Part shown: one piece after another, positions 3,747 through 27,023 of the stretch | How positions within the stretch are numbered: position 1 is the stretch's first letter | Layout: every line of letters starts with the position of its first letter | IMG/VR virus record: IMGVR_UViG_3300025086_000059 | Span: 1 to 44,469 of that record | Length of the DNA: 44,469 bases | Reading direction: 5' to 3' (one strand) | Source of the DNA: a virus | The notes under the pieces: model-generated | What the model was told of the DNA's origin: nothing | Database searches by the model: none | The model's input: only the letters and a program-made list of their open reading frames with translations | Program-made: the position numbers and the translations under genes

Positions 3747-4014
3747 GAGATATTACAGATGCTAAAGATTTAGCTTTGGATAGTTCTCCACACATTTCAT
3801 ACTCTTCTATTTCGCTAAAGTATTCCATAAGTATATCATAGGCATCATCATCTAAGGGAACATAATGTTTGGTAGGGTTAAAAATAAAAGCCGCCCCATC
3901 ATCTTTTTCTAATATCTCTTCATAAGTAGCTTTACCAGTTAGAACCAAATAACTGTTATACATACAAGAGTATTCATCAAAGTCTTCTATACTAAATTGT
4001 TTTAGTTTTTTCAT
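3739..4014 (-). CDS. Unknown small acidic protein, last gene of the virion block
   Basis: This 91-residue protein is acidic and helical (for example EYFSEIEEYEMCGEL) with no recognised domain. It begins within the last bases of the giant polyvalent gene (ATGA overlap, 4011-4014), which indicates translational coupling to it. It is the final gene of the minus-strand block and runs into the oppositely oriented early block with an 8-base overlap. A partner, inhibitor or chaperone of the upstream polyvalent protein is conceivable from position alone, but nothing in the sequence proves it. Confidence 0.6.
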   Translation of the reverse strand: MKKLKQFSIEDFDEYSCMYNSYLVLTGKATYEEILEKDDGAAFIFNPTKHYVPLDDDAYDILMEYFSEIEEYEMCGELSKAKSLASVISLI

Positions 4015-7000
4015 GATGATTTTTCTAATGCTTCTTCTCTTAACCTTTTCTGTTCTCTTTTAATTTTATCTATCTGATCTTGTACATCATCAGGCATCTT
4101 TCTTTTTTCTTCTATCTGTTTGTAGAGTTCAGGGAAATATTTTTTCAAATCACTCTTGCTCATTTTCTTTGGCTTCTTTCTCTTTCTTTCTTCATCGCTT
4201 TTTATTTGGAACTCACTAAAGTTAAACAATCTTAATAAAACTTCTTTAGGATCTGAAGAATCCTTCATAATTTGTTCTATATTCTTCTTGTATCTTTTAA
4301 GAGATTTTAAGTTTAAACCAAAGAAACCTGGTAAGTCTTCCATAAAGAACTTCTGATAAAGTTCTTTTCTTTTTTCTTCATCTTCTGTGGTTTCAATTCT
4401 TTTAACTAAATTAGCTAACAGTTCCATTTGTTCAATAAATGGTATGTCGGTTACATCTGCCTCCCAAGGTTTGCCAGTAATAGCATCAGCAAACATTGCT
4501 AATATATCACCCATAACAAACAATGCATTTAAGTTACCAATAAGAGCTGCTCTTGTAAGATCAGTTTTATCTTCATCATCCCATGGTGCTAATACACCAG
4601 GTAGTCCAGCCGACAAGTATTGGAAGAATACTGGAAGCACCACATGATAAGTAAATAATCCTCTCAAGTTTTGTCCGAATGTACCTCTTCCTTCTTTACC
4701 AAACGATCTTATTATCTTATACATATTTCTTCCATATATAATTTCTTTTCTTAAATAAGATCTGATAGAGGTTTTAAACATATTCATTGTCCTTTGGAAG
4801 ATACCTCTTGTTTGTGTATAGTCTCTGTTTTGTAAATCAGTAGACTGCTGTGTTTGTCTTGTTGCTATTTCAAATTCTCTTATAGCTCTATCAATCACTT
4901 GTTGCTCAGTAAGACCTGGGTTTTCTTTTCTTATTTTATTTTTATGATATTTATACAATGGTACTCCACCAATAAGTATTGCTCCCTTATCTCCTTGTTT
5001 TACCAACCACATAGTTCCATCAAGTATTTTTTGGAATGTACCAGTAGTCAGTTTCGATTCGAAGTCAGAGCTCGGTACAAAGTTTTCTAAGTTTTTAATT
5101 ATAGCTTTACCATATCTGTCTTGTATATACACAGAGTTATTCATTATTTCTTTAATTAAAGTCCTTATCTCTCCTATACTCAGAGCTGCATTTTTACTCC
5201 AGTTTCTATAACCTATATCATTCGCATATGTAGGGAAGGACACTAACTGTTTCAAGAAGATAGTTGGGTTCACACCAAGCCTACCTACTACAAAGTAAGT
5301 AGTTGCTATGTTCAACCACTGTTCTGATCGAGTGCTACTGATACCTTTAGTGTTTAAAGTTTCTATTTGATTTAGTATCATGTTATAAAAACCATCAGGG
5401 TATTGTGATTCAATAGCTTCGCTTATGTTAGGGTTTCTAAACAATTTATTTATTCTATTTAAAGATGGTGCATATGCAGCAAACCAGTTCATTTGTTCTT
5501 GATAAGCTATAAAGCTTCTCATCAAATCCATATCTCTAATAGGTATCTTGTTTTTACTTCTAACTTTTGATGAGGATGGTGCAGCCATTCCAGCAAATGC
5601 TCCTCCTCCATCAGCTAATAAATTAATTTCACCTGGTTCTACTCCCTCTCTAAATATTTGCCCACCATAGTTTTTACTCCAAGGTAAGTCCATACCATAT
5701 ACTGCTCTATAGGTTTTATTATATCTCTCATACAATCTTGGATATGCTTGTTCTACCATATAGTCAGCTAACACCAAAGCCTCTGAATTATTAGCCTCCA
5801 TATATTCTCTCATCTCTTTCATTACTCTTTTATAATCTTTGCCATACTTAGCTTCATATGAAGCATGGTTTGCAGGATCTCTATATTGATTTAGGTGATA
5901 AGCCATTTGGTATGGAGATAAATGAAGTTGTAAAGCCTCCATTTTTATTTTGTTTTCAGGTGTTTTGTTTCTATTGTATTCAGCTTTAGCTTTGTTATAT
6001 TTATCTAAGTCTGTAGCTATACCAGTATCTCTAAGTAAAGAATCATTTTCCATTTTACCTATCCACCCTTTACCATATATCTCTTGTAAATTAGTTTCAA
6101 TCTCTGCTCTATCTTCCATTTGAAAACCTTTATGAACTATAGATGCATCATCAACAAGTCGAGCAGTAATATCTTGGAAAGGACCTCCAAATATTCTACC
6201 AGGAGTTTTAGTGATATACTCAACAAGAGTAGTTAAGTCCATTATGTTAGCTATTTGATTTCTTTTAATCCATCCAGTTATACTATTTACCATTCGAGCT
6301 GGTAATGACTTAGCTTGTCTTTTCTTTGCATCAGTAAGATTCTGAAACTCTTTCATGATGTTTTTAGCATCAGGGTTTACCACCATCTTCAAATTACTTT
6401 TAGTCTCAGGTAACTGGGGATCGTAGTTAGTATTAGGAACTAACATTTCTATTTTGTTGCCAGTGATACTTTCCCAAGCAATTTCAATGTCTCGTAGATA
6501 TCTGTGATATCTTCTTCTTTTCTGTGTTTCTAATGTGTTTCTTCCTTCATTTACTGTTTCATTTAACTGTTCGAAAACTCTATTTAAACCTGCTACTTTC
6601 TCAAAGCTGGAGTCTTCCTCCAACTGTGTATTAGCATAATCATTAATCATTTCCAATGCAGCAATCTCTGCAAATGTATTTTCGTTTTGAAGCGACTGAG
6701 ACTGTAACTTACCTATTCTATCTAAATTTTTCTGAATTAATGCTTCAATCTTTTTTGGATTATCTTTTATATTTCGAACATTACTAAAAATACTTTTAAC
6801 TTGCTCTAATAGTTTTATAGTTTGTGAGTCTACCAACTTAGCTTTTAATCTACCACCCTCTACCTTAGCAAAGTCTTTATTTAATAATTTCTCAATCTTT
6901 GATTCTAAGCCTTTGACAATTTTTGTTGTTGCCATATCCATTAACTTAGATTTTACTTCTTTTATATTTTCTAAAGTTGCATTTTGAACCTCTTGTACTA

Positions 7001-10000
7001 ACTTTAATGTTTCGGGTTTAGTATACATATCTGCAGGGAATACCACTCTTATAAAGTTTCTTAAAGCTGATTTTACCCTCTCCAAACTCTTAACATTTTT
7101 AGTTTGCATGTTTACTACAGCTCTTGCCAATCTAATTTGATTAGCCATATCTTTAGTAGGAGCTTGATAGAAAGATTTTTCTAACTGCATCTCCATCTGA
7201 GCTTGTAGCACAGATAATCCTTTCTTATCCTTAACAGCTATATACTCAGGTTGTTTTCTCATAAACTCAATAGTCTTAGTCATTATCTCAGTGTTGGTGA
7301 GTTTATATATTTTAGCTCCTGGGTTTTTTGCTTTTAAATTATCTATCTCTTTTTGTTTAGCTGCAATAGCTCTCTTTTTATTTTTCTGAGATTGTAAAAC
7401 TTCTAACTCTTGTTGTAATTCTACTATTGATTTGCCATAAGAAGTTAAGTTAGTGTTGGTTAGTCTGTCTTTGTACTTAGATATTTTTTCAAACAGTCTT
7501 ACACCAGTAAGGAATCCACCTTTTAGTTTTTGGAATGACTCAGGCATTCTACTCAATACAAATGTACTGGCATCAGTTAGTTTGTTAACTACATTAGTAG
7601 CTATCTTTTTCTTTTCTAACAAATATTTCTTGATAGCTTCAGGGTTAAAGTTAGTTTCTCTCAACTTTACTATAAGTTCTGCAATGTTGGAAATACCACT
7701 TCCCGCTTTATCAATATCTTTTTGTTGTCTACCATATGGATTATAAAAATATGGCTTACCTCTCTTTGAAACCTTTTGGAAATAGTAACCAGTTATCTCA
7801 CCAGTAAACTCATTCCTTGCAGTTCCTAATCTCATTCCAATGTTTTCTAATTCTCTTCTGAGTTTTGAAGTATCAAACAATGCTCTTGGGTTTATAAATC
7901 CACGAGCACTCATCATATACCTATCGGCTATGGGTTTAGATTCTTTCTGTTCTCTGCCTTCGAAGATATCTAACTGATCTCCTTTTTCTTTTTTCTTTTG
8001 TTGTTCTTGCTTTACTTCTTTCTTAATGTTTTCTGCTTGTTCTACATTTTCTTCTATTGTCACTACAGACCTGCCAGTTTTTACTGCAGCTTTTGCGGTC
8101 GAACCACTACCAGCAAATGGATCAAGTATCAACTCACCAGCTTTAGTAGATGCTTTTATAATAGCTTCTAACAAAGCAACAGGCTTGGCAGTTTGATAAT
8201 TAGAGTCTTGCCCAAAAGCATACTCTCTATCAAAACTGAAGTCCATATCAGTTCTTTGATTACCACTTTGACTAAATGCAAATATCCATTCTTTCAATGG
8301 TATACCGAACATCTGTTTAGGTTTACCTTGTTTGTCCAGTTTACCAAACTGTGCAGCAACTGAAGAAGGTTTCAATCCATTTTTAGTAAATGCATCATAA
8401 TATTTAGCTAATTGTTTTTTGTTAGACTTAGATGCACTAAACATAAAGAATACTGGTGTGTCGGGATTCTGTAGTAATTTAACAACATCACCAACAAACT
8501 CATTGAATTGTTCTGGTGATATAAGTTTGTATTTAGTTAAGTTTCTGTTACCACCACGAGCACCTGGTATTATGTATGGAGGGTCTAAGAATATCATATC
8601 AAACTTAGCTCCTTCTTTGACTAATTTTTTTATTTCAGCCAAAGCATTTGCTCCTTGAACAACTGCCGCAGTCTTACCATCTTTAGTTTTTAATGTGTAT
8701 ACACCTGCCGCAACTCTTGAAAGCTCACCACTTTTTGCTCCTTGTCCTAATATTCTTCTTACAGTAGGCTCAGGTAAACCAGTTATCTCTGTGATTTGTT
8801 TTATAGTAGCAACTTCAACTTTACCCAATACATCTTTGACTTTTTGCTTTTGCGTTTTCTTTTTAGGCTTGAGAGCCTTAACATCTTTTTGAGTAATAGT
8901 TTCTCCAGTTCTAATCTTCTGAGCTACAGTATTCATTAAATCAACTATGTCTTGATCTGATTGTGTAAAGGATGATATGTCAAGACCTAATTTAGCCGCA
9001 ATCTTTTCTACCCATTGTCTAATTCTACTTTTAGTAGGAGCATCTAATTTAGTATAACCATCGGCTAAAACCCCTAATATTTCTGCTAACTTCTCTTCAT
9101 TCTGTATATCAGTATCATAGTTTTTAATGAAGTTATCAATCTTTTGTTTCTGTTCTTTAGTTAAACCTTTTGCTTTAGCAACTGCTTTTACCATTCTTTT
9201 AGTTAACTCTCTTGCCTGTGCATTAGTTTTAACAGAGTTTAATAACAATGCATGAAACATTTCATGAGCAACTGTTCGGTTGCTTCCTTTTGTTAAATCA
9301 ACATGTATGGTTTGATCTGTAGGATTATAGAAACCTCTACCAGTTTTACCAGTGGCTTTCTGAAAGTTTTCAGATGACTCATGTAAAACTATATTTACTT
9401 TAGGTAATATTCTTTTGACTGCTTTTGCAGCTCGAGTTGCAAATTTAACTATACCATCAAATTTACCTTCTACTTCAGTCTCTATTGGTGTAGTAGATTT
9501 ACTTCTTTTTACTTTACCATCTTTAGTAACATTCTCTGTTTCAATATCTACTTCTTCTTGTACTCCTAACTCAGTTGTTGGTGTAACTACATCTCCTTCG
9601 GTTTCAGTTTCGGTTTCTCCAACAAACTCTTGTATATCACCAACCTCTTCTTCTATTTCCGCCTCTTTCTTCGGGGTAACTTTACCTTTGCCTTTTTGGT
9701 TACTCGTTCCGGTAGACTCTGATACTGGGTCGGGTACTCCTTCAGCCACTTCTTCAGTAGATTGGGATTCGACTTCGCCAGTTTCCTGAACTGGGCTTTG
9801 CTCTTTACTGGCATCTCTTTGTTTTTTTAATTCAACTTTAGCTTCTTCAATAGACTTAGGGCTCATCTTTATAGGGGGTAAACCTAACTTAACCCTTGTT
9901 TTATTTTCTTTTTCTATGTACTGTTTTGCTTGAGTATCGGTAATCTCTTCTTCTTGTTCGATGTTAGCTTCAGTACCTTTAACTGCACTCGCCCCTTCAA

Positions 10001-12515
10001 TTAAATTTTTTAACTGAGTATCAATTTTCCCTATCTCTTTATCTATCTTTCCTCTTAACTCAGGAGCAATGGCTTCTCTTTGTCTTTGTAAGATGGCTTT
10101 ATTATATAACAAACCTACAGCTTTTTTTCGACTTTCTGTGTCGAGGTCTTGAGGTACTTTAGGTACTATACCTCTTATGTCTTGTACTGCATCTAACAAA
10201 GACTGCCCTTCTGCTTTATTAATATCACCCTTGTTAATATCATTTTTAATTTTTTGAACATATGCTTTATAGAAAGTACCATCATTACTTATATCTTCAA
10301 AAGTTTCAAACATAGGATCGGATATGGCTGTATAATCTTTACCAACATAACCCGCAGCAACTGCAGGAACTGTACTCATTACCCAACCACCAACAGCTTC
10401 TTGTGCTCCAGCATACATAATTTGTCCAATAGCATCTCTAACTGATTCAGGTGTTTGAAACATGTCTTTCTCTTTGATTTCATTGTAAATCACTTTACCA
10501 CTGATATCAGCTATCTCTTGAGCAACACCAGTTTCAAATTCTGCTAATCCACCTGCCCCAATAATAAGAACTCCTTTTGCTATATCACTTTCTATTTCAT
10601 TTAATACCACTTGTCTAAATGTCAATCCTTGAGTTTGATGTGCACCTTTATATTTTTGTAATCCTTTTAAGACATATTTATTTAGTAAACCTTTTTGATT
10701 CATTACATTCCTCAAACCAAAATACTCTAAAGCTCCTACTGTAACTGCAATTGGAAGGCTTACTGCTTTTCTTTCTGCTTCACTAATATCTGCAAAGTCA
10801 GGATCTCTCATCATTTCATCTCGTAAATGACTATCTACTTGTGCAAACATTTTTGCTGTTCTTCCTACCCAACCACCTGGTCCAATAAAAGCTGGAAGAG
10901 ATTCGGCAAGTCCTAACCATGCTCCACCCCAAAATCCTTCTCTCATCATATCACTATATTCAGCAGTAGTGGATTCATTACCAATAGCCATCATATATCC
11001 CTCTCTAACTAAATTCATCATACCATCTTCAGTAAGCTTACCAATATTATCTTTTAGGTATGAATCAGAGTATCTTGTTCCAGCATCGAGTTGTTTAGTA
11101 GTTATTGAACCATCATCATTAAATTCTATGTTATCATACTTACTGCTTTTTAATACTCTGTCTTCGATATAAGCATTTATTTCACTTATTTGTTCGGGAG
11201 AAAAAGATTGTTTAAATGCTTCAAAACTTTCAAAAGGTTCTTTTATATCATCAGGATTAAAGAAACCTAACTCTTCAGCTCTCTTAGCAAATGACTTTTC
11301 ATATTGAGGTTGACCAAGCATCATGCTAAATGGCATAGCATTTACCATAGCAGTAATACCATAGTCTATATAACTCTCAGACATTCTTGATATACCATAA
11401 GTAATACCATTCCATGTAGCTCCTAAGAAACTACCCTTTTTAGCTTTCATCTCAGAGTATTTACCCACCAACATATCTATCTCATACCCTCTATTTGTTA
11501 GTGACGCATCCTGTGCATACAAATCTGCTTTTTCACCATCTAACATTACTCTTGCTTGTTCTAAGTCTTTTAAGAATCTTTGACCAATATCTGTATTGAT
11601 TTGTTCTTGAGTTAGACTGTCTGCTTGTGCCTTTTTTTGTAGATATACTCTTCTCTTTTTTATATAAGCTTGTACTCTGTTATTAAATGCTTCTGCTTCA
11701 ATGTTTAGTATTTTAAACTGGTTTTCAACTTCGGCATCACTTTGAAGTAATCTGTCTTTTACTGCTAAATTTTTTTCGGTTTTTTCAAACCTGGTATCTA
11801 CCTTTTGATACTTTCTAATAAAGTCTTGGATATCTTTTGCAGCTTGAAGGTTTTTTGCTTCATCTTTGTTATCTACCTTAACTTTGATTTCGTAAGGCTT
11901 ACCAGTGGTAGGATCGATTTGGTCTGAAGAAATTTTAACGAAGTCCCTAAATATTTCTGCTTGGTCAAACTTAAAGCCATATCTTTCAAATCTGTAGGCT
12001 AAGTCAGGAACTAACTCTTCCTCATCTTGTGCTAATAATTCGGGTGTAATATTGTTAAGTGCATTCTCAAAAGGATCTGCACTTATCTTTTGTTCCTCTT
12101 GTTGTAGCTCATCATATTCTTGGAATGTTTCTTTGTCTACTTCTCCTTCATTTATACTAAATGATTCCTCATCAAATTCAATACTTTCTCCTTCTGAAGG
12201 TTGGGAAACAGAAGGTATAGAGGGTGACACTGTACCCTGTTCTTCCGAATCTTCCCCAAGTCCAGCATCGTCCATGCTTTCTGATATAGGATCGTCGGGA
12301 GATAAATCTTTTTTTTTTACCTTCTCAATGAAAAGGTCTAAGGTGTATCTTTTTTGAAATGTGGGGTCTTTCTTTGCTATCCACTCATACATCTTTACTG
12401 CATACTCTTCATTATCCATATTGGTAACGAAGTCTTCCAGCTTGTATCTTCCACTAAAAGAACTATCCTTTGAGTCTATCCATCCATAAAGTTGTTCTAA
12501 ATATTTATTATTCAT
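4011..12515 (-). CDS. Giant polyvalent virion (ejection) protein with zincin, winged helix and embedded beta-class DNA methyltransferase
   Basis: This protein has 2,834 residues. The N-terminus holds two copies of a short motif (residues 5-33 and 37-66: YGWIDSKDSSFSGRY, YEWIAKKDPTFQKRY), then an acidic linker. Hydrophobic, Gly/Ala-rich segments lie at about 520-550 and 640-660, and an acidic low-complexity linker at about 940-1030. A zincin-like site has HEMFH at 1084-1088, with a downstream Glu in EKLAEILG as possible third ligand. A winged helix (about 1235-1285) precedes a complete methyltransferase: DPPY at 1311-1314, then DPFAGSGS at 1465-1472, the beta-class (N4-C or N6-A) order. Long helical regions follow, with hydrophobic segments near 2620-2645 and 2655-2680 and a Lys-rich C-terminus. 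Known polyvalent proteins combine such effector domains and travel with injected DNA. It follows two ejection-like genes, so I infer a capsid cargo protein. Virion location is inference. Confidence 0.85.
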   Translation of the reverse strand: MNNKYLEQLYGWIDSKDSSFSGRYKLEDFVTNMDNEEYAVKMYEWIAKKDPTFQKRYTLDLFIEKVKKKDLSPDDPISESMDDAGLGEDSEEQGTVSPSIPSVSQPSEGESIEFDEESFSINEGEVDKETFQEYDELQQEEQKISADPFENALNNITPELLAQDEEELVPDLAYRFERYGFKFDQAEIFRDFVKISSDQIDPTTGKPYEIKVKVDNKDEAKNLQAAKDIQDFIRKYQKVDTRFEKTEKNLAVKDRLLQSDAEVENQFKILNIEAEAFNNRVQAYIKKRRVYLQKKAQADSLTQEQINTDIGQRFLKDLEQARVMLDGEKADLYAQDASLTNRGYEIDMLVGKYSEMKAKKGSFLGATWNGITYGISRMSESYIDYGITAMVNAMPFSMMLGQPQYEKSFAKRAEELGFFNPDDIKEPFESFEAFKQSFSPEQISEINAYIEDRVLKSSKYDNIEFNDDGSITTKQLDAGTRYSDSYLKDNIGKLTEDGMMNLVREGYMMAIGNESTTAEYSDMMREGFWGGAWLGLAESLPAFIGPGGWVGRTAKMFAQVDSHLRDEMMRDPDFADISEAERKAVSLPIAVTVGALEYFGLRNVMNQKGLLNKYVLKGLQKYKGAHQTQGLTFRQVVLNEIESDIAKGVLIIGAGGLAEFETGVAQEIADISGKVIYNEIKEKDMFQTPESVRDAIGQIMYAGAQEAVGGWVMSTVPAVAAGYVGKDYTAISDPMFETFEDISNDGTFYKAYVQKIKNDINKGDINKAEGQSLLDAVQDIRGIVPKVPQDLDTESRKKAVGLLYNKAILQRQREAIAPELRGKIDKEIGKIDTQLKNLIEGASAVKGTEANIEQEEEITDTQAKQYIEKENKTRVKLGLPPIKMSPKSIEEAKVELKKQRDASKEQSPVQETGEVESQSTEEVAEGVPDPVSESTGTSNQKGKGKVTPKKEAEIEEEVGDIQEFVGETETETEGDVVTPTTELGVQEEVDIETENVTKDGKVKRSKSTTPIETEVEGKFDGIVKFATRAAKAVKRILPKVNIVLHESSENFQKATGKTGRGFYNPTDQTIHVDLTKGSNRTVAHEMFHALLLNSVKTNAQARELTKRMVKAVAKAKGLTKEQKQKIDNFIKNYDTDIQNEEKLAEILGVLADGYTKLDAPTKSRIRQWVEKIAAKLGLDISSFTQSDQDIVDLMNTVAQKIRTGETITQKDVKALKPKKKTQKQKVKDVLGKVEVATIKQITEITGLPEPTVRRILGQGAKSGELSRVAAGVYTLKTKDGKTAAVVQGANALAEIKKLVKEGAKFDMIFLDPPYIIPGARGGNRNLTKYKLISPEQFNEFVGDVVKLLQNPDTPVFFMFSASKSNKKQLAKYYDAFTKNGLKPSSVAAQFGKLDKQGKPKQMFGIPLKEWIFAFSQSGNQRTDMDFSFDREYAFGQDSNYQTAKPVALLEAIIKASTKAGELILDPFAGSGSTAKAAVKTGRSVVTIEENVEQAENIKKEVKQEQQKKKEKGDQLDIFEGREQKESKPIADRYMMSARGFINPRALFDTSKLRRELENIGMRLGTARNEFTGEITGYYFQKVSKRGKPYFYNPYGRQQKDIDKAGSGISNIAELIVKLRETNFNPEAIKKYLLEKKKIATNVVNKLTDASTFVLSRMPESFQKLKGGFLTGVRLFEKISKYKDRLTNTNLTSYGKSIVELQQELEVLQSQKNKKRAIAAKQKEIDNLKAKNPGAKIYKLTNTEIMTKTIEFMRKQPEYIAVKDKKGLSVLQAQMEMQLEKSFYQAPTKDMANQIRLARAVVNMQTKNVKSLERVKSALRNFIRVVFPADMYTKPETLKLVQEVQNATLENIKEVKSKLMDMATTKIVKGLESKIEKLLNKDFAKVEGGRLKAKLVDSQTIKLLEQVKSIFSNVRNIKDNPKKIEALIQKNLDRIGKLQSQSLQNENTFAEIAALEMINDYANTQLEEDSSFEKVAGLNRVFEQLNETVNEGRNTLETQKRRRYHRYLRDIEIAWESITGNKIEMLVPNTNYDPQLPETKSNLKMVVNPDAKNIMKEFQNLTDAKKRQAKSLPARMVNSITGWIKRNQIANIMDLTTLVEYITKTPGRIFGGPFQDITARLVDDASIVHKGFQMEDRAEIETNLQEIYGKGWIGKMENDSLLRDTGIATDLDKYNKAKAEYNRNKTPENKIKMEALQLHLSPYQMAYHLNQYRDPANHASYEAKYGKDYKRVMKEMREYMEANNSEALVLADYMVEQAYPRLYERYNKTYRAVYGMDLPWSKNYGGQIFREGVEPGEINLLADGGGAFAGMAAPSSSKVRSKNKIPIRDMDLMRSFIAYQEQMNWFAAYAPSLNRINKLFRNPNISEAIESQYPDGFYNMILNQIETLNTKGISSTRSEQWLNIATTYFVVGRLGVNPTIFLKQLVSFPTYANDIGYRNWSKNAALSIGEIRTLIKEIMNNSVYIQDRYGKAIIKNLENFVPSSDFESKLTTGTFQKILDGTMWLVKQGDKGAILIGGVPLYKYHKNKIRKENPGLTEQQVIDRAIREFEIATRQTQQSTDLQNRDYTQTRGIFQRTMNMFKTSIRSYLRKEIIYGRNMYKIIRSFGKEGRGTFGQNLRGLFTYHVVLPVFFQYLSAGLPGVLAPWDDEDKTDLTRAALIGNLNALFVMGDILAMFADAITGKPWEADVTDIPFIEQMELLANLVKRIETTEDEEKRKELYQKFFMEDLPGFFGLNLKSLKRYKKNIEQIMKDSSDPKEVLLRLFNFSEFQIKSDEERKRKKPKKMSKSDLKKYFPELYKQIEEKRKMPDDVQDQIDKIKREQKRLREEALEKSS

Positions 12516-23248: not shown

Positions 23249-24262
23249 TTATGTTTGTATTTGGTTGTCTTGGACTATTTCTTGTTTTCCAAACTCATAG
23301 ACATCTGCTTCTCTAATCTCTACACCAATGTATTGACATATTTTTGCAATCAAACCTGGTTGATCAGACAATGGTAATTCAAAGTCTTGATAGTCTGCTG
23401 CAGTATCATTAAATAAAGGCTCACCACCAGTTAATGTTACATATGTCCAATTTGGTGTAACTGGATATCTTATATACTGTACTTGTACTGCTCCCTTTTG
23501 TCTAATTGTACTTGGATAAACTGTAATAGTATTTCCTATTGCAGAGTTAGGTCCAGCTTGTACATTAGATGTAGCTCCGCCTAAAACATACGCGGGAAAC
23601 TGAGTTGTAGGGGAAGTCAAGTTAGAGCTTGTCAACATATATATTTTCTGTTGATTAACCCTTTCTACTTCAGTTATATTGGTATTAGTGTATACCACAT
23701 AATTCTGTGCTACAGCATTAGTTATATCTGCACTTAAACTTAAAGTTGTGGTACTATCCACTGCAGTAACATATGCTTGTGAGATGGGGTTAGAAGAGGT
23801 GTTAACTATAATGCTCCCTATGGGTGGATTTTGCTCAAATAAAGGATTTGCCGGTGAAGGCACAAAACCACCAGTTGCATCTATTAACTTGTAACCCTGA
23901 GCTCCAGTCGTAGTACCACTAAATCTTGCAGAGGGATAATAAAAAACTTTATTTATTAAATAGTAATCTTGAGGTAGATTATAAAGGTTGGCATTATTTA
24001 AATTAGCCACAGTCTGATCTAAAAATACCTCAGCTGAAAAACTATCTGCTACTTCTTCTAAACCTTTAACTATGTTTGCATATCCTGTTCCTGATATTCT
24101 CGCGTTCTCTTTATTAATCCAATTGTTATATTGATAAAAATAATCTTCAAATATATCCAACTGTGCTTGTTCACAATATAGATTAAAATCTTGTGGAGAT
24201 ATGTAGCCATAGTTGTTCTTATTAGCAATAGCTAATACTGTGTTTCTTACTTCGTTTATCAT
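23249..24262 (-). CDS. Second connector/ring-type structural protein
   Basis: This 337-residue protein starts with a helical domain (NEVRNTVLAIANKNNYGYIS, then FNLYCEQAQLDIFEDYFYQYN). It continues with beta strands around NLPQDYYLINKVFYY (about residues 97-111) and VQVQYIRYPVTPNWTYV (about 260-276). The layout resembles the adjacent ring protein: an N-terminal helical part followed by a DYY/DYV-containing beta part. A head-tail connector role is likely. It is the first gene after a terminator-promoter pair, so it probably heads the tail operon. The mRNA leader from the TATCTTTGT box at 24279 would be about 10-15 bases. Confidence 0.68.
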   Translation of the reverse strand: MINEVRNTVLAIANKNNYGYISPQDFNLYCEQAQLDIFEDYFYQYNNWINKENARISGTGYANIVKGLEEVADSFSAEVFLDQTVANLNNANLYNLPQDYYLINKVFYYPSARFSGTTTGAQGYKLIDATGGFVPSPANPLFEQNPPIGSIIVNTSSNPISQAYVTAVDSTTTLSLSADITNAVAQNYVVYTNTNITEVERVNQQKIYMLTSSNLTSPTTQFPAYVLGGATSNVQAGPNSAIGNTITVYPSTIRQKGAVQVQYIRYPVTPNWTYVTLTGGEPLFNDTAADYQDFELPLSDQPGLIAKICQYIGVEIREADVYEFGKQEIVQDNQIQT

Positions 24263-24278
24263 TGTAAGTTGAGTTTGT

Positions 24279-24287
24279 ACAAAGATA
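24279..24287 (-). promoter_or_regulatory. Promoter -7 element TATCTTTGT for the ring/muzzle operon
   Basis: The minus-strand TATCTTTGT is identical to the boxes at 15602, 24706 and 34750. It sits 17 bases before the ATG at 24262 and directly after the U-tract of a minus-strand terminator. The upstream promoter region therefore overlaps the terminator hairpin. No -33 TTG is obvious; the run of ten T residues lies there instead. Confidence 0.62.
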
Positions 24288-24289
24288 AT

Positions 24290-24321
24290 AAAAAAAAAAG
24301 AGGCCTAAATATTTAAGCCCC
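24290..24321 (-). terminator. Rho-independent terminator after the small 109-residue gene
   Basis: Read on the minus strand, GGGGCTTAAA and TTTAGGCCTC pair as an imperfect stem with G-U wobbles, followed at once by ten T residues. It lies 24 bases past the stop of the gene ending at 24345 and should end transcripts coming from the capsid region. Confidence 0.75.
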
Positions 24322-24344
24322 TTTCTACCTTTAGTTAAGTTGTC

Positions 24345-24674
24345 TTATGCAGACCACTCTTCTTCTATTTGAGCAATAGCTGTAATAGCATACTTAGGCT
24401 CAAGTAAATAGTAAGGGTTTGTCCAGCTTGTCTGTAGTGCATCTTCGATAGCATCCACAATACTGTTAAGTTGCTCTTTAGTCTTAGCTGCATCTGCTGC
24501 TGTAGTAGCAGTGATTTTGTAGCCTAAAACTTCAGATACACCTGTAGCAGTATGTCCCACATTGTGAGTAAGGATTTTTACTTCCGTATTTGCTCCTACT
24601 TCAATTCCTAAAATACTTTGAATAGGAATTAAATGATAAGCGTCGCTTAAACTGACTTTTAGATATTTTACCAT
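24345..24674 (-). CDS. Small probable virion protein in its own transcription unit
   Basis: This protein has about 109 residues. The frame contains an ATG at 24707, but that ATG overlaps the TATCTTTGT promoter box and cannot be transcribed from it. The ATG at 24674 (MVKYLKVSLSD) has an A-rich leader (ATTAAAATTTTTAACT) and is preferred. The protein looks like a compact alpha/beta fold: VKILTHNVGHTATG, then an Ala-rich helix with KTKEQLNSIVDAIEDAL and an aromatic end. No enzyme motif is seen. Having both its own promoter and a strong terminator, it is likely made in high amounts. I infer an abundant structural or capsid auxiliary protein, but it is not recognised. Confidence 0.65.
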   Translation of the reverse strand: MVKYLKVSLSDAYHLIPIQSILGIEVGANTEVKILTHNVGHTATGVSEVLGYKITATTAADAAKTKEQLNSIVDAIEDALQTSWTNPYYLLEPKYAITAIAQIEEEWSA

Positions 24675-24705
24675 AGTTAAAAATTTTAATGGGTTAAACA
24701 ATACC

Positions 24706-24714
24706 ACAAAGATA
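24706..24714 (-). promoter_or_regulatory. Promoter -7 element TATCTTTGT for the 109-residue gene
   Basis: This is the third exact minus-strand TATCTTTGT. It lies in the 47-base gap between the gene ending at 24722 and the ATG at 24674, giving a leader of about 25-28 bases. Its position across the apparent upstream start at 24707 argues for the downstream start. Confidence 0.65.
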
Positions 24715-24721
24715 TGAAACC

Positions 24722-25483
24722 TTATTTATCTTTTTTAAGCCTTCTTTGTAAGAGTTTATATATCTCAACACCATCATCACTTTGAAAGTGTGATGCAACT
24801 ATAAAGTATGGGTCTTCACCAAAAGGAACTGTTAATAGTTTCTTTTTATTTTTTGGTAAATCAAAGTATACATCTTTAGATTGGTTTCTAAATGTTAAGA
24901 ACCCATTATCAAAAAACTTATATACATCATCTTGTAAATCTAACATCGGATCGTTAAGTGTGTCTAAGAAATCAATAGGATTGTTTTTAGCATATAATAA
25001 TATATCTCTTTTCAATTCAGTTGAAGTTTTCTTATCTACACCACTGCCAAGAAGAACTCTACATACAGAAACAAGTTTTTCAAACTCTAAGTTTTTCGCC
25101 ATAACTTGAGCATCTAAACCTAACTCTACTATTTCTAATTCTTCCGCAGCATCTTGCTCCTTGTTTATTTCTTCATACACATAGTTTCTTTGTGGATGAT
25201 AATATAAAAATTGTTGTAATACTTGATTGGTTTTAGCAACATGTAAAATACCATCTTCAAACAGAATTGGTTCTAAGATTGCATTTCCATCTTGTTCATC
25301 TTCAAAAGGTGACTTTTGATTTTTAGCATACCTAAGTGGTCTATTGACGTTTTGTTCTTCATCAAACCACATTAAAGGATATCTTGCTGAGTTTCTCGAT
25401 GCCAACATATAGGTAAGTGGTGCGGCATCTCTTTTTAATTTGTAGAATTTATCTACCAAAGGTTGTTTTTTTGTCTTTTTCAT
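24722..25483 (-). CDS. Unknown protein downstream of the major capsid gene
   Basis: This 253-residue protein is basic at both ends (MKKTKKQPLVDK and LQRRLKKDK) and charged throughout. A recognisable early block reads PLTYMLASRNSARYPLMWFD, followed by RPLRYAKNQKSPFEDEQDG (residues about 22-68). I have seen similar proteins in marine phages near head genes, but without a firm function. It follows the capsid gene after a strong terminator and has no -7 box of its own, so it is probably expressed by read-through. Its leader contains AAATTAAAATTT. It could be an assembly factor or minor virion protein; this is inference. Confidence 0.6.
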   Translation of the reverse strand: MKKTKKQPLVDKFYKLKRDAAPLTYMLASRNSARYPLMWFDEEQNVNRPLRYAKNQKSPFEDEQDGNAILEPILFEDGILHVAKTNQVLQQFLYYHPQRNYVYEEINKEQDAAEELEIVELGLDAQVMAKNLEFEKLVSVCRVLLGSGVDKKTSTELKRDILLYAKNNPIDFLDTLNDPMLDLQDDVYKFFDNGFLTFRNQSKDVYFDLPKNKKKLLTVPFGEDPYFIVASHFQSDDGVEIYKLLQRRLKKDK

Positions 25484-25514
25484 TATATTAAATTTTAATT
25501 TGATTAAATAAAAT

Positions 25515-25540
25515 AAAAAGGGGAGGAGACATCCTCCCCT
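25515..25540 (-). terminator. Strong rho-independent terminator after the major capsid gene
   Basis: The arms GGGGAGGA and TCCTCCCC pair perfectly (9 bp counting the flanking A-T pair) around a 4-base loop. On the minus strand the hairpin is followed by TTTTTATTTT. It lies 17 bases past the capsid stop. It is the only G+C-rich stem of its kind I noticed in this A+T-rich window. Confidence 0.9.
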
Positions 25541-25556
25541 AATTATTGATTAAATA

Positions 25557-27023
25557 TTAAGCATCTTGGAATAAGAAGAAGTTGTTTGCACCTAAAGTAC
25601 ATACAGCTCTCTCACTCAAGAAGTTTACTTCCATCGCATCTAAGTCAGAAGTTCTTGCTCCACCAGCAGAACCAGTGATCCAAGTTTTATATCTTCTGTC
25701 TTCAGTTTCGGAAGCTCTATATCTTACATGTAAGAATGGTCTCTTAGCATTTTTACCTAAGATTTGATCGTATACTGTAGTAGAACCAGCAGGGACTAAT
25801 AGTCCATTAACTTTTCCACCTACGATACCACCTCTCATTGTAGGATCGTTTAGATATTTCCAGTCTGACTTGTAGAAGTCATAGCCTCTTCTGAATCCAG
25901 TGAATCCAAGATTAAGTGCCATTTCTTCATCATTGTCAAATAATCCATAAGATGTACCACCAGCTCCATAAGAATTTTGCTGTGCTAACATATCATCGAT
26001 ATCAAACGAGAAGTTTCTGTTTAAGAAAATTACATTTTCCTCAATAGAACCTTGCTTGTCTAATCTTGAAATAACTGAGTCGAAGTCTGCAAGAGAAGAA
26101 GGATTTCCTCCACCCCAAACATTACCTCTTGCTCCTACTACGAAGAAGATACCATCAGAACCATTAAGGTTTGCTACAGACGCACCAGCACCAACTCCTT
26201 GTAAGAAGTCACCAGCACCAGAAGCTGCTTCTGCAGGAACTGCTTCAATCATTGCAGTTTCTAAGTAATCTTCGAATCTTAGTCTTGTTTCATGCTCAGA
26301 CTTTAGATACCATAAATATCCAGATGCTCCATTTTCTGTAGTAACTTCAATCCATCCGATTTGAGCCATATCAGAACCAGATACATTGTATTTGTCCTTG
26401 ATAATAATTGGCTTGTTGTCAAAGATGAAGTCATCAGCTTCAAGAGATCCTTGCATTCCATTAGTTCCTTTGTTAAATTCAGAACCATATACGAAAATAT
26501 CACAAGCAACTGCTGCTGCTACTGCTTGGCCTCCAGCCTCATAGTAAGCAATTGTTACTTGATTAACTGCATTACCACCAGAACCAGGTCCAACAGTTAC
26601 GATTCCTTTGTTACTGAGGTTTGAACCTGCAGTCTTGTCAGAAATCATTACAGTTTGACCAACTCTAAGAGCTGCAGAATTTGGAGAACCAGCTAATGCA
26701 GGGTTAAAGTTAGTAATGTTATTAGGAATTGTCCACACACCATTTGCTGCGGCTGCTCCTGCACCTGAAGTACAATTCTGATATTTAACGTGTAGTCTTC
26801 CTTGCTCTGCCCATTTAATAAGGTCAGAGTTAGAAGGCATTTCAGCTCCTACCATTCTTAGGAAGGAAGCTATTGATCGATTGCCATATCTTTCAAACTC
26901 TTTTTCAAATGTATCAGGTAAATACTGATTCAAGAAATTAAAGTCTGTAATATAATTTGTAGAAAGCGGTACTTGCTGACTACTTGGTTGCAAATCAAAA
27001 CCAGGGGCTACATTTACTGCCAT
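25557..27023 (-). CDS. Major capsid protein (crAss-like type)
   Basis: This 488-residue protein has the size and motifs of major capsid proteins in crAss-like and related Bacteroidota podoviruses (HK97 fold expected). FEDYLETAMIEAVPA lies at about residues 250-264, NLGFTGFRRGYDFYKSDWKY near 370-390, and RPFLHVRYRASETEDRR near 427-443. SDLDAMEVNFLSERAVC is close to the end. A Gly/Ala-rich stretch at about 85-180 could be the extended loop or an inserted domain. It follows the scaffold gene by 21 bases and is closed by a strong terminator, as expected for the most abundant head protein. The start context is ideal for a flavobacterial message: A at -3, -6, -12 and -13 with TTAAAATT next to the ATG. 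Confidence 0.9.
   Translation of the reverse strand: MAVNVAPGFDLQPSSQQVPLSTNYITDFNFLNQYLPDTFEKEFERYGNRSIASFLRMVGAEMPSNSDLIKWAEQGRLHVKYQNCTSGAGAAAANGVWTIPNNITNFNPALAGSPNSAALRVGQTVMISDKTAGSNLSNKGIVTVGPGSGGNAVNQVTIAYYEAGGQAVAAAVACDIFVYGSEFNKGTNGMQGSLEADDFIFDNKPIIIKDKYNVSGSDMAQIGWIEVTTENGASGYLWYLKSEHETRLRFEDYLETAMIEAVPAEAASGAGDFLQGVGAGASVANLNGSDGIFFVVGARGNVWGGGNPSSLADFDSVISRLDKQGSIEENVIFLNRNFSFDIDDMLAQQNSYGAGGTSYGLFDNDEEMALNLGFTGFRRGYDFYKSDWKYLNDPTMRGGIVGGKVNGLLVPAGSTTVYDQILGKNAKRPFLHVRYRASETEDRRYKTWITGSAGGARTSDLDAMEVNFLSERAVCTLGANNFFLFQDA

Follow-up and report, generated by a model that had tools for sequence, protein, structure and literature searches.

A putative allele-exchange slot bordered by a terminator-promoter seam in the late region of phages related to flavobacterial podoviruses

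T4-like phages reportedly carry composite promoter-terminator motifs, the PeSLs, which work attributed to Arbiol in 2010 and Comeau in 2014 is said to have connected with modular shuffling. In T4, PeSLs contain early promoters and reach a high density in regions of intense shuffling (PMC4503421, in excerpt). The locus described here resembles PeSLs in two respects. A stem-loop terminator is joined to a promoter in one element, which we call the seam (found in 166 of 174 distinct slots), and this element borders exchanged gene units, in our case at their right-hand border. There are also two differences. The promoter part of the seam is a Bacteroidota -7 element, TATCTTTG, within the late capsid/virion block, whereas that of T4 is an early promoter; and T4 has many copies, whereas the window has one seam among its listed minus-strand gaps, for one gene family in one slot, although some relatives hold several cassettes in the slot. 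Since neither the early promoter nor the high density is found, the seam is not filed here as a PeSL, though it would work like one. If our proposal is true, terminator-promoter shuffling would be extended from T4-like to Bacteroidota phages. As a whole, we propose that the late region contains a slot for the exchange of alleles of a single gene, with the seam as its right border, and we regard this as reasonably probable. No description of the slot, the seam or the slot family was found in the literature searched, which covered few subscription papers.

The window, that is, the whole stretch of DNA analysed, is a virus record of 44.5 kb that is classed as linear in IMG/VR and is therefore likely a fragment. 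Its terminase, portal and virion proteins match PHROGs. Among the 85 named phage records that match its capsid protein, 68 are from Flavobacterium phages, 15 from Cellulophaga phages and 1 from a Maribacter phage, and one is unnamed. By record name, the relatives include Pervagoviridae (phi38:1 and Calle_1), Pachyviridae (phi13:2), Elemovirus and Maribacter phage Panino. Because both the capsid matches and the named relatives are flavobacterial, the host of the virus is most likely a flavobacterium.

Transcription signals of the slot locus

All features of the locus lie on the minus strand. The major capsid gene (25557..27023, 488 aa, phrog_13704) was identified through its positional counterpart in Cellulophaga phage Calle_1, which is annotated as major capsid protein. 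Directly 3' of it lies gene A (24722..25483, 253 aa, phrog_34748 of unknown function), the left flank of the slot, homologs of which are present in cultured flavobacterial phages. The slot gene (24674-24345, ATG start, 109 aa) is preceded by a -7 promoter element TATCTTTG at 24714-24707, with a predicted start near 24702, and by a 5' leader at 24675..24706. Downstream of the gene follow a hairpin of 14 pairs with a loop of 4 (24326-24295), a run of ten T (24299-24290), only two bases (AT), and a second TATCTTTG at 24287-24280 with a predicted start near 24275, which serves gene B (23249..24262, 337 aa, phrog_14543, a virion structural protein), the right flank of the slot. The predicted starts follow the published spacing of 4-5 nt, the G of the -7 box being set at -5 in the Flavobacterium numbering. 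The original prediction had listed a promoter box, a 109-residue gene, a hairpin with ten T residues and a second box two bases on, and all of them are present at the claimed positions.

The hairpin has the make-up of an intrinsic terminator, namely a stable GC-bearing hairpin followed by a U run. Its folding energy is -15.9 kcal/mol (z -3.5), and none of 200 shuffled sequences folds as well. Terminator-like sites are also in excess in the window as a whole (13 found vs 3.7 expected). A generic sigma-70 scan of the window found 41 promoters vs 41.2 expected, and in view of this lack of excess the generic sigma-70 model was rejected as the wrong model for this phage group. Flavobacterium promoters recognized by the primary sigma factor (sigma-ABfr) have instead, in the portion of PMC6847099 that describes them, TAHHTTTG at -7, a weak -33 element, AT-rich DNA at -18 and -28, and transcription that begins 4-5 nt downstream. 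The TATCTTTG boxes match the TAHHTTTG element; the window has six occurrences of TATCTTTG, none of them on the plus strand. Of the nine TATHTTTG sites on the late coding strand, four lie at most 45 nt upstream of a gene start, a distance at which 3.2% of positions fall by chance (p about 1e-4). The boxes of the slot locus thus resemble sigma-ABfr promoters, as excerpted from the same source, in TAHHTTTG, the weak -33 and the AT-rich -18, with the difference that at the seam the AT-rich part is the T run of the terminator. Host-type promoters at the slot also fit the probable dependence of crAss001 middle and late genes on the host polymerase, as stated in part of PMC8375218.

It was originally proposed that the hairpin occupies the -33 area of the following promoter. 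Relative to the predicted start of gene B near 24275, the hairpin reaches from about -20 to -51 and so includes -33, although no -33 TTTG element is recognizable there or in the sequence upstream of the box at 24714. The shared DNA that matters is likely the T run, at -15 to -24. The slot gene had further been taken for a strictly insulated unit, its insulation being unusual in a block of otherwise overlapping genes. That it forms a separate unit is well supported by the fused hairpin, T run and -7 box, which recur in most relatives (see below), but the insulation is one-sided. No terminator was found between gene A (last stop base 24722) and the slot gene, so transcription of gene A can run in. 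Among the 101 filled slots of the first survey, 68 have a promoter without a preceding terminator, as in the window, 25 have a promoter with one, and in 8 the first 130 nt contain no -7 box. Nor do the surrounding genes overlap throughout, given minus-strand gaps of 47, 54, 56, 73 and 82 nt, and the terminator scan also gives the capsid gene a terminator of its own, at 25540-25519. Rather than an insulated high-output gene, the locus is better read as an allele-exchange slot with the terminator-promoter seam as its right border. A separate observation concerns gene A. The gap between it and the capsid gene (25484-25556) contains the strong terminator that ends the capsid gene and no TAHHTTTG box for gene A, the expression of which may depend on read-through past the capsid terminator.

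The slot and its protein family across relatives

The loci compared comprise 73 that encode the slot protein, the best 80 of at least 596 that encode the capsid protein, and the named phages; two other slot alleles contributed further loci, 15 for one and the best 80 of 107 for the other. A first survey yielded 113 distinct slots between genes A and B. Twelve of them are empty or nearly so (0-131 nt, the value of 0 being a coordinate overlap in L125), and the remaining slots range from 370 to 1987 nt. Elemovirus, phi38:1, Calle_1 and a Manatee Spring phage have no slot gene between A and B, the slot of Cellulophaga phage phi13:2 (L162, 6887-9589) holds 11 small antisense genes, and that of Maribacter phage Panino holds several other small ORFs. 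It seems that the A/B boundary is a general insertion site in this phage group. The carriers of the slot are mostly uncultured phages akin to those of marine flavobacteria and related to cultured flavobacterial podoviruses. Two side observations were made among these loci. The slots of L115 and L124 (about 1985 nt) each contain four family members in tandem, three of them short and one long, which suggests duplication within the slot. L005 and L009 are two different capsid regions on the same 105-kb contig (IMGVR_UViG_3300030101_004148), which is probably a chimera of two phages.

Single-linkage clustering of BLAST matches placed 120 of the 132 slot ORFs of at least 40 aa in one cluster of 80-411 aa, to which a few members are only weakly linked; the remaining 12 ORFs are short, five of them in Panino and seven elsewhere. 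With 120 of 132 ORFs in one family, the possibility that the slot collects random cargo or moron genes was rejected. An alignment of 75 members shows M1, K3 and W84 to be invariant. The slot thus brings to light a protein family that is large, highly variable and unnamed, present in about 100 of the 113 slots of the first survey, with attachment or evasion as its candidate role.

Searches for known relatives of the family returned little. The 109-aa protein has no PHROGs or Pfam match at E up to 0.001. When 10 members were scanned at E up to 1, L116 alone matched structural PHROGs, through a repeat domain, and the others gave chance-level matches only. None of 10 large members has a family match at E up to 0.01, a profile search of the PDB with the slot family gave nothing below E 1, and tblastn with three members against named phages gave no match (E up to 1e-5 or up to 0.1). 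The AlphaFold2 model of the 109-aa protein, built with 75 family sequences, has a pLDDT of 88 and consists of a beta sheet and one 20-residue helix. With this base domain, Foldseek found no PDB entry at E up to 0.001, and VIA found PH-like and FERM domains at Z 5-6, possibly just a common arrangement; proteins of crAss001 are absent from the matches that the two tools listed, an absence that carries no weight. Nine fold matches were found in BFVD at E up to 0.001, all without function (2 labelled uncultured virus, 7 unnamed); for a weaker BFVD match, in Vibrio phage Kuja (E 0.038), the gene was not located in the first 50 kb of the record.

The large members are more informative. In members longer than 145 aa (n = 12), the base domain is mostly split after its first strand by long inserts. 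In the model of one of them, L079 (pLDDT 84.5), the insert folds into a small beta barrel, for which VIA ranks a phage capsid protein (Z 8.8) and a phage tailspike (Z 8.1) highest. These values are little above those of F1-ATPase barrels (about 7), and the modelled barrel favours a role at the virion surface, short of proving it. We propose that the family would have a constant base, made of the N-terminal strand and the C-terminal helix with its Trp, and a variable part made of loops or inserted beta domains. The slot protein would then be a late, virion-surface protein, either a capsid decoration or a head-fibre protein, diversified for attachment or evasion; we give its placement on the virion surface even chances.

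Small, diverse, swapped genes with their own promoter are also typical of superinfection exclusion and counter-defence functions. The slot protein might accordingly have a late intracellular role of this kind outside the virion, its turnover being driven by host defences, and the slot genes do agree with such a role in being small, very diverse, swapped, sometimes absent or duplicated, and equipped with their own promoter. We nevertheless consider it unlikely: the position of the genes, with capsid-side genes on one side and a structural gene on the other, is fixed, the beta barrel inserted in a large member has its best matches among phage structural proteins, and PADLOC matched none of eight family members.

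The seam and the exchange of slot alleles

The seam was surveyed in 174 distinct slots from 252 loci. TAHHTTTG lies at most 60 nt from gene B in 172 of them, and a run of 5-11 T lies at most 8 nt upstream of this -7 element in 170 (with a spacing of 1-4 nt in 168). The full arrangement, with hairpin, T run and -7 box directly adjoining before gene B, is seen in 166 of the 174 slots, which are related to each other, so that these are not independent events. Hairpins were found in 3% of shuffled controls, and in 0.4% when the score was held equal. Of the 716 TAHHTTTG sites elsewhere in these loci, 15 are accompanied by such a T run. It is also evident that the hairpin sequences vary widely among relatives while their pairing is kept. 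The seam is very likely a real transcription boundary. Of the 12 slots no longer than 131 nt, 11 have it, the twelfth being the coordinate overlap in L125, and phages with an empty slot and a seam include phi38:1, Calle_1, Elemovirus and the Manatee Spring phage, among them cultured phages of Cellulophaga and Flavobacterium. The seam therefore predates the slot gene or is independent of it, and it marks a boundary in front of gene B that was not made for the slot gene. Panino has kept the -7 element without a clear T run.

For the comparison of slot alleles, 168 loci were usable, each slot being represented only by its first ORF of at least 70 aa. Both flanks are at least 85% identical in DNA in 157 pairs, in one of which the slot is empty on both sides. 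Among the other 156 pairs, the slot proteins are at least 60% identical in 140 and less than 50% identical in 16 (less than 40% in 13), and none falls at 50-60%. An earlier count based on 98 loci had 7 swapped pairs among 70. Slot proteins can be as little as 25-31% identical between genomes whose flanks are 94-99% identical. The 16 swapped pairs belong to five backbone clusters, some of them interrelated, and by our own grouping represent three to five independent cases, perhaps three lineages. All contigs compared are metagenome assemblies, so single swapped pairs could be chimeras. The replaced segments are short. In L103 and L008, 321 replaced nucleotides lie between BLAST blocks of 5026 nt (97% identical) and 4769 nt (95%), and in L099 and L109 the blocks measure 8347 nt (96%) and 2108 nt (95%). 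In 200-nt windows along three pairs, and leaving aside the ends of the overlap, identity falls below 80% outside the slot just once, to 72% in L099/L109.

The backbone of the window itself is found with a swapped slot. L172, L180 and L181 are 94% identical on both sides to L001, the twin of the window, and their slot proteins are 26-30% identical to its own. Two backbones were each found with both of two alleles, so that all four combinations exist. The DNA identities of gene A, slot and gene B are 94/49/94 for L001 and L172 and 98/47/96 for L036 and L098, each pair having a common backbone; they are 68/89/73 for L172 and L098 and 70/68/73 for L001 and L036, each pair having a common allele. 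Such a set of combinations is a classical sign of recombination, and so the alleles recombine between backbones. In the reverse comparison, 157 pairs have a common slot allele (at least 80% identical in DNA) on backbones less than 78% identical. Taken together, exchange of slot alleles between backbones appears nearly certain from these alignments.

We then located the borders of the swaps. In 13 swapped pairs, the hairpins are 65-71% identical and the stretch after the T run, comprising the promoter and leader of gene B, is 85-100% identical, whereas in same-allele pairs (130 of 140 measured) both have a median identity of 100%. As the hairpin has diverged and the stretch behind the T run is conserved, the right crossover lies in or beside the T run, and the alignments place the apparent right-hand breakpoint between hairpin and -7 box, in the T run. 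One allele of 93 aa brings its own leader and hairpin on both backbones, and the promoter and leader of gene B stay with the backbone. The left crossover falls somewhere from the first -7 element to the first few codons of the slot gene, a region that includes the leader, and is not sharp in some pairs. When one allele is common to different backbones (126 of 157 pairs measured), the median identity of the hairpin is only 76%, and thus the hairpin does not always travel with the slot gene. These breakpoints make the seam the likely usual site of crossover.

The presence of the seam in empty slots would also be expected if the seam reflected only genome compaction at an old head/tail transcription boundary, with a fast-diverging slot gene beside it and no part of the seam in exchange. 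This is improbable, since fast divergence alone is insufficient for a slot identity that is bimodal on matched backbones, with the gap at 50-60%, for alleles 80-92% identical in DNA on backbones below 78%, and for right-hand breakpoints located at the seam. Under the exchange-slot proposal, swaps would take place by homologous recombination between co-infecting phages at short stretches of similarity, in the promoter and leader on the left and in the T run and promoter on the right. The T run would serve twice, as the U tract that ends the slot transcript (or that of gene A) and as AT-rich upstream DNA of the promoter of gene B. Any gene arriving with a hairpin and T run at its end would be functional at once, and gene B would stay under its own promoter. 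We offer, as a tentative extension that we rate somewhat below even, a serotype-like exchange in which a capsid-surface gene may be swapped as a unit (leader, ORF and often hairpin) between co-circulating phages, the T run acting both as promoter DNA and as recombination seam so that the expression of both genes survives every swap. The sharp right border and the four backbone-by-allele combinations provide a case, at the level of sequence, for changing one putative surface protein while its neighbours and the transcription signals are left intact.

Comparison with described virion proteins

Capsid decoration proteins are accessory, and some have Ig-like domains thought to serve host adhesion (PMC7602432, in part). 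The slot family, known here from genes and models, may resemble Hoc, pb10 and gp17 of N4 in consisting of accessory proteins. In crAss001, the head-fibre proteins gp21 and gp29 and the auxiliary protein gp36 are likewise small or insert-bearing proteins of the virion block, and in other groups the part of the fibres might fall to uncharacterised proteins (PMC10172136, section 6). However, gp21 and gp29 are encoded before the capsid gene and the slot lies after it, and profile comparison revealed no sequence relation of the slot family to gp21, gp29 or gp36. A reading of the slot protein as a reduced and distant version of gp36, the auxiliary capsid protein of the crassvirus crAss001, whose PH-like domain holds an inserted domain, is very unlikely: although the base domain has weak PH-like matches, among them one at Z 3.6 to 4dx9, which the PH domain of gp36 also matches (PMC10172136), and carries inserts in large members, there is no sequence signal to gp36 (hhalign E 0.12), the Z values are within the range of common arrangements, and the slot is empty in related cultured phages, which is unexpected for a general auxiliary capsid protein.

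When the profiles of five flank families and the slot family were compared with 16 crAss001 proteins, the best matches were those of gene A with gp33 (E 0.003) and of gene B with gp34 (E 0.006); these genes are in the same order in crAss001, the matches being too weak to claim a relation. Two further proteins of the window may be mentioned here. A protein of 794 aa encoded at 40499-42883 matches phrog_2647 ("head decoration") and phrog_38058 ("tail fiber") and may be another surface protein. The virion gene block also encodes a protein of 2834 aa (4011-12515) with a DNA methylase domain (PF01555, E 4.5e-17).
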